Part shown: positions 48,161 to 56,646 of the stretch, piece after piece | How the letters are laid out: every line of letters begins with the position of its first letter | How positions within the stretch are numbered: position 1 is the first letter of the stretch | Assembly (NCBI GenBank): GCA_025059715.1 | Contig: JANXCE010000004.1 | Coordinates: forward strand, 1 to 64,000 | Source: Caldimicrobium sp. | GTDB lineage: Bacteria > Desulfobacterota > Thermodesulfobacteria > Thermodesulfobacteriales > Thermodesulfobacteriaceae | Reading direction: 5' to 3' | Length of the DNA stretch: 64,000 nucleotides | Notes under the pieces: generated by a model | The model's input: the letters and a program-made list of their open reading frames with translations, nothing else | Databases searched by the model: none | What the model was told of the DNA's origin: nothing | Position numbers and translations under genes: made by a program

Positions 48161-48529
48161 ATGGAAGAACGGATCGAAACTATTGTTAAGTTACTTTCAG
48201 ATAAAAAAGCGGAGGATATCTTGGTTTTAGATGTCCGCTCCAAGGTTAGCTATGCGGACTATTTTATCATCTGTAGCGCCCACTCTACAAGACATGCTCA
48301 GGGTATCTCTGATTATGTAGTTGGGGAATTGGAAAAGTTTAACATTAAGCCCTTAGGGATTGAAGGCTGGGAGACAGGAAATTGGATTATTTTAGATTAT
48401 AACACTATAATAGTCCATATCTTTTTTGAGCCTATCAGAGGCCTCTATGCTCTGGAAGAACTGTGGTCTGAATCTCCTCCGCGAAGGCGACAAAGGATTC
48501 TTCCTCTGGAAAGAGAGACCTTTCAATAG
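48161..48529 (+). CDS. rsfS: Ribosome silencing factor RsfS
   Basis: ILVLDVRSKVSYADYFIICSAHSTRHAQGISDYV..GIEGWETGNWIILDYNTIIVHIFFEPIRGLYALEELW. Confidence 0.94.
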   Translation: MEERIETIVKLLSDKKAEDILVLDVRSKVSYADYFIICSAHSTRHAQGISDYVVGELEKFNIKPLGIEGWETGNWIILDYNTIIVHIFFEPIRGLYALEELWSESPPRRRQRILPLERETFQ

Positions 48530-52678: not shown

Positions 52679-53173
52679 ATGGGGAAGGTAAGGAAGGTTC
52701 TTTATATAAGCCTTTTAGTAGTAATACTATACATTCTCTTTCCTACAGCCTTAAAAGGGTCCACTTCCAACCTTTTCTTTAGCTCACCAGATGGAAAGAG
52801 ATATAATTTTGCAGATTTTAGGGGTAAGTATCTCCTGGTTAATCTTTTCTCCAGTTATTGTCCTCCCTGTATGGTCGAACTAAAGGTTCTTCAAAAACTT
52901 CATGAAAGTTGTGACACCAAAGGTCTGCAAATTGTGTCTCTCATGATTGATCGTGACGGTGCTCCCCTCTTACCTAAGATCATTTCTTCAAGAAATCTTA
53001 CCTATCCGGTAGGTTTAGCAAATCAGGACATCCTTAAGCTCTTCCCTGATTTTTCTATCACTCCCACCACCTATCTTTTTGATCCTCAGGGCAAGAGACT
53101 GGAGAGATTTGTCGGATTTAAAAACTATAAAGAGTGGACGCAAGTTCTGAGTAAGTATGTAAAATGTAACTAA
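52679..53173 (+). CDS. TlpA-like thioredoxin family protein
   Basis: NLFSSYCPPCMVELKVLQKLHESC. Confidence 0.88.
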   Translation: MGKVRKVLYISLLVVILYILFPTALKGSTSNLFFSSPDGKRYNFADFRGKYLLVNLFSSYCPPCMVELKVLQKLHESCDTKGLQIVSLMIDRDGAPLLPKIISSRNLTYPVGLANQDILKLFPDFSITPTTYLFDPQGKRLERFVGFKNYKEWTQVLSKYVKCN

Positions 53174-54222
53174 GGAAGTATCTCTAAGGAGGGTTCACCC
53201 TCCATAACTTCTCCAACTAAGTATAAGGAGTAAAAGCCTCTCTCTAAGGCTTTACTCTCTAAGAGGGCTTTTTTTTCTTTTGGACAGGCAATAAGTAATC
53301 CCCCTGAAGTTTGGGCATCTGCAAGAATAAGGCGATCTTCCTCTTTTATAGTGGGATGGAATTTCAAAAGATTTGTGCAATAGGCAAGATTTTGATAATC
53401 TCCTTCGGGTATTATTCCCATCTGGGCAAATTCCCTTGCTTCCTTAAAGAAGGGGATGCGATGGAAGTAAAAGAGTAATTTTTTTTTGCTTCCTTGAGCC
53501 ATCTCTAAAGCATGTCCAATTAAGCCAAAGCCAGTTATATCAGTTGCAGAGCTTACTCCTACCTCTATCATTAACTCCGCAGGCACTTTATTTAGTTCAA
53601 TCATAGTGCTGACCATTTTCTTATAAAGGAGACTCTCTTCATTAAAAAGGCCTGCTTTAAAAGCGGTAGTGAGAATCCCTGTGCCTAAGGGTTTAGTAAG
53701 GTAGAGTAGGTCTCCCGCCTTAGCACCTCTGTTGGTGATAATTCTCTCGGGATGAACGATTCCCACAAGGGCTAAACCATATTTAGGCTGGGGATCATCG
53801 ACGCTGTGTCCACCTACGAGGAGGGCTCCTGCTTCTTTGATTTTGGATAGACCTCCCTCAAGGATTTTTTTTATAACCTCTCTGGGTATGCCCTTTTTGG
53901 GAAAGGAGAGGAGATTAAGCGCAAGAAGGGGCTTTGCTCCAGTGACATATATGTCAGAGAGGGAATTGGCAGAGGCAATTTGTCCAAAGATGAAGGGATC
54001 GTCTACCACGGGGGTAAAGAAATCTGCGCTAAATACAATGGCGAGTTCAGAAGTAAGTCTAAAAATTGCAGCATCTGCTCCATATTCAAAGCTTTGAAGA
54101 AGATCTGGATGAGAGGGTAGGGGAAGTTCTTGAAGGATCTCCTCCAGGAACTCCTGGGGAAGCTTGGAAGCTCAGCCTGAGGCGGTAACCATCTGAGTCA
54201 ATTTAATCCTTGGCGCACTCAC
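53170..54222 (-). CDS. selD: Selenide, water dikinase SelD, selenoprotein with in-frame TGA (Sec17)
   Basis: ORF track begins at 54009, but the same frame continues upstream: V-S-A-P-R-I-K-L-T-Q-M-V-T-A-S-G-[TGA]-A-S-K-L-P-Q-E-F-L-E-E-I..ADFFTPVVDDPFIFG; GTG at 54222, TGA at 54174-54172. Confidence 0.9.
54142..54174 (-). promoter_or_regulatory. Candidate bSECIS hairpin downstream of the selD UGA
   Basis: UGA GCUUCCAAGC UUCCCCAGG-AGUU-CCUGGAGGA: stem with G at second loop position, ~20 nt after UGA. Confidence 0.6.
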
Positions 54223-54694
54223 TGGGGTCTCCCTTAATTTTATTTACCGCATGCCAAAGGAGCTCCTTTAATTGGGGCATGATCTCTCTTAATGCCCTGG
54301 GACTTCCTGGAAGATTAACAATAAGTGTTTGTCCACAAACCCCTGCTAATCCTCTACTCAGAGCAGAGAGAGAAGTTTTGCTAAAACCAATAAACCTAAT
54401 ATACTCCGCAATTCCAGGGATTTCCCTCTCAATGACCTCTTTTGTAGCTTCGGGAGTAACATCTCGAGGATGAACACCAGTGCCTCCAGAAGTAAGAAGG
54501 AGATCTACTTTGGAGGACTCACAGAGGCTCTTGAGTTTACTTACAATGAGGGGCTTCTCATCTGGCAGAAGGGTATAATCCACTACTTCCCAACCAAGGC
54601 TCTCAAGAAACTCAAGAAGGTATTTGCCTGAGAGATCCTCCCTTTCCCCTCTACTTCCTCTATCACTCAAGATTAATATAGCGCACTTAATCAT
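54203..54694 (-). CDS. Molybdenum cofactor biosynthesis protein (MogA/MoaB-like)
   Basis: ILILSDRGSRGEREDLSGKYLLEFL; LLLTSGGTGVHPRDVTPEAT; VNLPGSPRALRE. Confidence 0.92.
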   Translation of the reverse strand: MIKCAILILSDRGSRGEREDLSGKYLLEFLESLGWEVVDYTLLPDEKPLIVSKLKSLCESSKVDLLLTSGGTGVHPRDVTPEATKEVIEREIPGIAEYIRFIGFSKTSLSALSRGLAGVCGQTLIVNLPGSPRALREIMPQLKELLWHAVNKIKGDPSECAKD

Positions 54695-56646
54695 TCTCCC
54701 ACTTCCGCCTTTGCTTGAGCAATTATCCTTTCCGCAATAAAGGGAGGAACTTCCTCGTAATGGGAGAATTTGCTAACAAAGTAGCCTCTTCCTGCAGTAA
54801 TTCCATTAAGGGTTACTACATACTCTAAAAGTTCTGCCATGGGAGCTTGAGCCCTTATTTTAGTTTGTTTTCCCCTCTTCTCAAGATTTAAAACCCTTCC
54901 CCTTCGGGAATTAAGATCTCCAATTACATCTCCCACGGTCTCATCAGGCACAAAGATCTCAAGTTCTAAATAGGGCTCAAGCAGTGTTGGACTTGCTTGT
55001 TCCAGGGCCTTTTTCAAACAGTGAAAAGCAGCAATCTTAAAGGCAAGATCAGAGGAGTCTACCTCATGAGACTTTCCATCGTAGAACTGCACTTTCAGAT
55101 CCACCACTGGGCAACCAGCAAGCACACCCTTCTCCATAGCTTCTCTCACCCCCTTTTCTACTGCCGGAACATAATTGCGCGGGACATTCATGCCCGTTAA
55201 GGTCTCCACAAACTCAAACCCCTTTCCTCTCTCTAAGGGAAACACGTGGAAGTGCACCTCAGCAAATTGCCCCCTTCCCCCGCTTTGTTTCTTATGCCGG
55301 TATATTACTGCCTGAACAGGTTTTTTAATAGTCTCTCTATAGGGCACCTTAGGAAGGGATGTTTTAACCTTAACTCCATATTTTTCTTTAAGTTTTTCCA
55401 CAGTCTTTTCTATGTGAACCTTTCCTAAGCCTGAGACAAGAAGTTCTCTCGTCTCCTCGTGGCGATAAAAATGTAAAGAAGGATCTTCCTCTTTAAGTTT
55501 GGATATTGCTCCGCTAATTTTATCCTCATCCGCTCTGCTCTCTGGAATAAGAGCCAAAGTAAACATAGGAGTAGGCATCTCTGGAGAGGGAAGTGCCACC
55601 TTGAGGGGTTCTAAGGAAAAGGTATCACCTGTTTTTAGAGACTCTACTTTGGGAAAAACCACAATTTCCCCTTCCCTAATTTCCTTTATAGCTTCCAGAG
55701 AGTCTCCTCGAGGAGAGAGTATCTGGGTATACTTTTCCTCTTTACCCTGAGAGGTATAAAGAAGGCTATCGGGTTTAAAAGACCCCTTGAAAACCCTTCC
55801 GAAAGAAAGCTTTCCCGCATAGGGATCATAGAGGGTCTTAAAGATAAAGCCATAGGAATTCTGGTGATTTAGTTGCGGAAAATCTCGCTCAGGATAAATT
55901 TCAAGGAGTCTTTTTAAAAAAAGGGAAACTCCCCTTCCCGTTTGAGCGGAGCCTATAAAAATTGGAACCATCCTTTGATTTTGAAGGTTCAATTTTAAAC
56001 CCTCAAGAAGTTCCTCTTTAGTTAACTCTCCAGTTTCCAGATACTTTTCTATGAATTCATCCTTTGCCTCTGCTGTTACTTCCATAAGTTGTTCTCTTAA
56101 AGTTTTAACCCTCTCTACATACTGATCAGGAACGGAGTTAAATTTTAGATTTTCTCCCTCCTCGGTAAGAGAGGCATTTTCAATAAGGTCAATGAGGGTC
56201 AAAGGTATAGAGGTATTAAAGCCGTAAACTACAGGAAGCTGGAGTATTTCTAAGAGATCTTGAAGATCGCAAATGGTTTGAGCCCACTGGGTTTTCTCCG
56301 AATCCAATTTATTTACAAAGGCTACTAAGGGGAGCTTTGCTTCTCGAGCAAGCTCAAAGATACGGTAAATGTGATATTTGATCGGAGTTGTAGAGTCTAC
56401 CACTAAGATTCCCAAGTCCGCAACAGCAGTTGCCCACTTAAGTTCTCCAACGAAATTTTCATCGCCAGGAGTGTCTATGAAATAGTAGGGCATTCCCTTA
56501 AATAGACAGCCATAAACATTTAAGAAAGTAGTTGGCCCTTTTTTAGGAATTTTCAACCTTGTTTGAGTAAGGGATAGAATTTTCTCAATCAATTGGGTTT
56601 TACCGCTTTCGGAACAACCAAAAACAGCTAAAACTCGTCCTCTCAT
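54691..56646 (-). CDS. Elongation factor G-like protein (EFG-II type, divergent)
   Basis: GCSESGKTQLIEKIL, FIDTPGDENFVGELKWA, NKLDSEKTQW, EF-G domains IV/V. Confidence 0.85.
   Translation of the reverse strand: MRGRVLAVFGCSESGKTQLIEKILSLTQTRLKIPKKGPTTFLNVYGCLFKGMPYYFIDTPGDENFVGELKWATAVADLGILVVDSTTPIKYHIYRIFELAREAKLPLVAFVNKLDSEKTQWAQTICDLQDLLEILQLPVVYGFNTSIPLTLIDLIENASLTEEGENLKFNSVPDQYVERVKTLREQLMEVTAEAKDEFIEKYLETGELTKEELLEGLKLNLQNQRMVPIFIGSAQTGRGVSLFLKRLLEIYPERDFPQLNHQNSYGFIFKTLYDPYAGKLSFGRVFKGSFKPDSLLYTSQGKEEKYTQILSPRGDSLEAIKEIREGEIVVFPKVESLKTGDTFSLEPLKVALPSPEMPTPMFTLALIPESRADEDKISGAISKLKEEDPSLHFYRHEETRELLVSGLGKVHIEKTVEKLKEKYGVKVKTSLPKVPYRETIKKPVQAVIYRHKKQSGGRGQFAEVHFHVFPLERGKGFEFVETLTGMNVPRNYVPAVEKGVREAMEKGVLAGCPVVDLKVQFYDGKSHEVDSSDLAFKIAAFHCLKKALEQASPTLLEPYLELEIFVPDETVGDVIGDLNSRRGRVLNLEKRGKQTKIRAQAPMAELLEYVVTLNGITAGRGYFVSKFSHYEEVPPFIAERIIAQAKAEVGE

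Follow-up and report, generated by a model that had tools for sequence, protein, structure and literature searches.

A Caldimicrobium selD gene that very probably encodes selenocysteine at the catalytic position of its own product

Does the in-frame TGA near the beginning of a selD gene from the heat-loving bacterium Caldimicrobium sp. end the frame, or is it read as selenocysteine (Sec), the 21st amino acid, at the catalytic position of this selenium-activating enzyme? The gene lies in a stretch of 64,000 nucleotides, which we call the window, and the mechanical list of open reading frames begins it only at a GTG at 54009, as a truncated frame of 279 aa. The original prediction held that the same frame continues upstream through the TGA, and translation confirms this, since the minus-strand frame 54222-53170 encodes a complete SelD with this TGA as its sole interruption. 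Counted from the GTG at 54222, the TGA is codon 17 and a Lys is codon 20, both as had been described. We consider it very likely (probability about 0.97) that the product of this gene is an active selenophosphate synthetase with Sec as its catalytic residue 17; Sec insertion and activity are taken from knowledge of the family. The features on which this reading is built are collected in Table 1.

Table 1. Position, strand and basis of the features at the selD locus
Feature	Position in window	Strand	Basis
selD, full-length selenide, water dikinase, 350 aa, one Sec UGA	53170..54222	-	translation, TIGR00476, PRK00943, 3u0o, 2yye
GTG start codon of selD	54220..54222	-	preceded by AAGGGAG; kept in close relatives
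In-frame TGA, putative Sec codon 17	54172..54174	-	aligned with catalytic Cys17 of E. coli SelD; codon survey of 143 loci
Candidate bSECIS hairpin	54140..54160	-	window folding; conservation and covariation; constraints from PMC13188914
Upper stem, 5 bp uninterrupted	54157-54153/54148-54144	-	part of bSECIS hairpin
Apical loop AGUU, G at position 2	54152-54149	-	part of bSECIS hairpin
Bulged A	54143	-	separates upper from lower stem of bSECIS hairpin
Lower stem, 3 bp	54160-54158/54142-54140	-	part of bSECIS hairpin
MoaB/Mog-type molybdopterin-binding protein, upstream of selD	54203..54694	-	PF00994, 104 bits; TIGR00177, 113.5 bits

The identity of the read-through protein is clear. It scores 349.1 bits against NCBIfam TIGR00476 (cut-off 125) and 315.9 bits against PRK00943 (cut-off 299), and its closest matches of known structure are 3u0o (E. 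coli SelD, E=7.7e-66) and 2yye (SelD, E=1.3e-64). In the translation, the family profiles and the structure alignment, the homology is unbroken on either side of the TGA. The alignment to 3u0o retains Lys20, which both proteins share, as well as Asp at the positions of D51, D68, D91 and D227 in the E. coli enzyme, the acidic metal-site residues that hold the metals. The two proteins are alike in family, length and catalytic layout; in contrast, E. coli SelD has Cys17 and needs no SECIS, whereas the window SelD would have Sec. The GTG is preceded, at a distance of 6 nt, by GGGAG, which resembles a ribosome-binding site, and the position of the start is kept in close relatives as GTG, or as ATG in one of them (L024).

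An alignment with Cys- and Sec-type SelD proteins had been proposed as a check; the alignment to 3u0o places the TGA on Cys17 of E. coli SelD. Across 143 SelD loci from many phyla, the aligned codon is TGA in 110 and a Cys codon in the other 33 (19 TGC and 14 TGT), and nothing else. Loci from the phylum of the window contribute 63 TGA, 2 TGC and 1 TGT, and species from many phyla contribute 47, 17 and 13, respectively. At the level of sequence, this restriction to TGA, TGC and TGT is the signature of Sec/Cys exchange. Moreover, nearly all SelD matches in 60 related genomes have exactly one in-frame TGA, and among the matches listed from 296 genomes of the phylum there is one in each, except for two matches without a stop. 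The TGA is also kept in genomes of the same genus at 74-81% identity, one of them a single contig; among named relatives, Caldimicrobium sp. SKYB93 is the nearest, at 81% identity. SelD copies with a Cys codon occur in three genomes that retain SelB and tRNA-Sec (loci L078, L079 and L080 of genomes G058, G153 and G277), and G277 has a Sec copy as well. A second, Cys-type SelD that could act as a backup was not found in the genome of the window, where the other two weak SelD matches are AIR-synthase-like proteins, 31% identical.

Downstream of the UGA, the transcript is predicted to fold into a hairpin that begins 12 nt past this codon. The published constraints for bSECIS elements are a loop of 3-9 nt with a G in its first two positions, an upper stem of 4-16 bp, a distance of 16-37 nt from the UGA and an MFE of at most -7.5 kcal/mol (PMC13188914, Fig. 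2A), and the window hairpin lies inside every one of them in loop length (4 nt), loop G, stem length (5 bp), spacing (19 nt from TGA to loop) and energy (about -12.4 kcal/mol). Thus, the 5-bp upper stem, the AGUU loop with G at position 2 and the fit to the bacterial rules stand as they had been described, but the 'extended lower stem' does not, as it has only 3 bp and a bulged A sits between it and the upper stem. In a sample of 520 TGAs from the window, rule-fitting hairpins of any kind followed 8 (1.5%), and only one TGA had such a hairpin at or below -10 kcal/mol. As a single sequence, however, the hairpin is only moderately convincing, because when this peptide is recoded at random with synonymous codons, 16% of the recodings satisfy the rule and 3.75% reach the same stability. 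Plain folding gives it modest z-scores (-1.0 to -1.9), and no Rfam family matched it at threshold.

It is the comparison across relatives that makes the case for the hairpin strong. We set 38 loci from this order, representing 35 distinct sequences, in register codon by codon and without gaps, and built a null from 2000 shuffles in which synonymous codons were exchanged between sequences that share the amino acid there. In the 35 sequences, 311 of 350 cells are paired, against 282.8 +/- 3.7 in the null, and none of the 2000 shuffles reaches 311, although the shuffle ignores relatedness and so overstates independence. Similarly, the mean MFE of the hairpin is -12.5 kcal/mol, compared with -9.0 +/- 0.5 kcal/mol after synonymous swaps, and pair 18-32 alone is formed in 31 of the 35 sequences, compared with 22.5 +/- 1.5. 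The partners in this pair are the third base of a Pro codon and, five codons on, the middle base of another codon, so that covariation links a silent position to one that alters the amino acid: CCG occurs with GCG, CCA with GTG and CCT with GAG (Pro with Ala, Val or Glu), and repeated switching at this pair is plain in the listed sequences. The stem is thus kept beyond the needs of the protein, which shows selection on the hairpin across the order.

Two sequences, those of the window species and of its closest relative (L018 and L019), depart from the register of the family, with GAG where most relatives have GCG or GTG. Relative to that register, the window has no pairing at alignment columns 20/30 (A,G) and 18/32 (C,A), and its stem forms only with a slip of one base, which counts against the Sec reading. 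The upper stem of both sequences can pair one base out of register; the window version leaves A 54143 bulged beneath its 5-bp upper stem, and the slipped hairpin is still stable and inside the bSECIS model.

The original prediction also implied a full Sec machinery elsewhere in the genome, whose absence would have refuted it, and the machinery is there: tRNA-Sec (79.4 bits, anticodon TCA), SelB (378.5 bits) and SelA (605.1 bits) were all found. Since this assembly is fragmented (80 contigs) and has an estimated contamination of 4.8%, we also checked nine related genomes, several of them single-contig, and all nine have SelB and tRNA-Sec. The genome encodes a second selenoprotein, the formate dehydrogenase alpha subunit FdhA, with one TGA in the motif CPARV-U-H and a hairpin that fits the bSECIS rule (7-bp stem, loop GGUCU, 18 nt after the UGA). 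We therefore rejected, for this genome, the idea that SelD is the only selenoprotein, in a Sec loop serving itself alone. The FdhA gene (L087, on contig C19 of the window's own genome, G000) is a very long frame of 1368 codons with a genuine TGA stop at its end, and its N-terminal part, named by eye, is glutamate-synthase-like/ferredoxin in the same frame as the formate dehydrogenase alpha subunit. In a sister genus (g6), FdhA seemed at first search to be absent from two genomes; genomes of this genus carry a TIGR01553-type formate dehydrogenase with one in-frame TGA. A search for SelU/YbbB, the selenouridine route, found none in 11 genomes of the order, including that of the window.

How would such a gene be expressed? 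The UGA would be read by Sec-tRNA(Sec) delivered by SelB, itself bound to the downstream hairpin. The finished SelD would make selenophosphate from selenide and ATP, SelA would use it to convert Ser-tRNA(Sec) to Sec-tRNA(Sec), and this would serve formate dehydrogenase as well as SelD itself.

Two other readings of the TGA have to be weighed against Sec. It could be a true stop or a sequencing error, the gene being a pseudogene or starting at the GTG at 54009, where the mechanical ORF finder indeed begins it. A protein begun there would lack residue 17 and Lys20 along with its N-terminal part; moreover, relatives share the TGA in a frame that is otherwise intact, and the hairpin past it is conserved beyond coding need. 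Resequencing that showed TGC or TGT at 54172-54174 would have spoken for an error, but separate assemblies of close relatives carry TGA at the same codon, which excludes one. Conservation across these sequences effectively refutes this reading, to which we give almost no credence. Equally improbable is that TGA has been reassigned genome-wide, or is read through by a near-cognate tRNA, so that a standard amino acid occupies position 17; nothing was found in favour of this. Among the window's 39 open frames of 200 codons or more, 10 end in TGA, as does FdhA; codon 17 switches only with Cys codons; and the Sec machinery is complete.

Another idea, compatible with Sec at position 17, is that SelD is also a selenium-sensing switch: when selenium is short, the UGA would terminate, SelD would fall and the pathway would go off, with the slipped hairpin tuning the response. 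The only SelD found in the genome is the Sec form, so that its synthesis would depend on its own product, and autoregulation follows only by inference from this need. However, dependence on one's own product is no proof of a regulatory role, and relatives that retain SelB and tRNA-Sec (G058 and G153) have Cys in place of Sec; we regard the switch as unlikely. It is tempting to speculate further, from the Sec form being the sole SelD found and from the selection on its UGA hairpin at silent and amino-acid-changing sites alike, that SelD may be a selenium switch that depends on itself and has two stable states, pathway on and pathway off, and that the one-base slip might alter the efficiency of UGA reading. 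We hold this to be slightly less likely again.

The end of the MoaB/Mog-type gene overlaps selD by 20 nt, and the two adjoin in 27 fetched loci; they are likely to belong to the same operon. Further upstream, 54691-56646 on the minus strand encodes an EF-G-like GTPase, of an NCBIfam EF-G subfamily and not SelB, that overlaps the mog-like gene by 4 nt, and the order EF-G-like, mog-like, selD is retained in about 24 fetched loci. On the plus strand, 52679-53173 encodes a ResA/TlpA-like thioredoxin with a signal-like N-terminus and a CPPC motif, convergent with selD, their ends overlapping by 4 nt. A homologue is found close to selD in 32 of the 49 loci fetched, across several families, so this thioredoxin may have a functional link, for example to selenium or thiol reduction. 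Elsewhere in the window, at 48435-48529, convergent HflX-like (minus strand) and RsfS-like (plus strand) frames, named by eye only, overlap by about 95 nt.

Sec-containing SelD is already known and widespread, and the present finding is correct but ordinary. Sec was found in 19% of the SelD genes of a reference set of prokaryotes (PMC4561486), many Deltaproteobacteria are listed as having Sec-SelD, Geobacter, Desulfovibrio, Syntrophus and Syntrophobacter among them (PMC1794560), and SelD is reported to be the second largest family of prokaryotic selenoproteins (PMC13188914). In these known Sec-SelD/SPS proteins, Sec is always at the same N-terminal position and Cys homologues are common (PMC4561486; PMC1794560; PMC13188914); the window SelD differs from them only in sequence, in the lineage of its host (Caldimicrobium-like Thermodesulfobacteriota) and in a hairpin register that is off by one base.

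What the locus adds is twofold. Standard annotation cuts selD at 54009 and loses the active site, and the correction matters for annotating the genomes of Thermodesulfobacteriota. In addition, the alignment is a clean example of an RNA hairpin constraining a protein, the third base of a Pro codon being set against the middle base of an Ala, Val or Glu codon.
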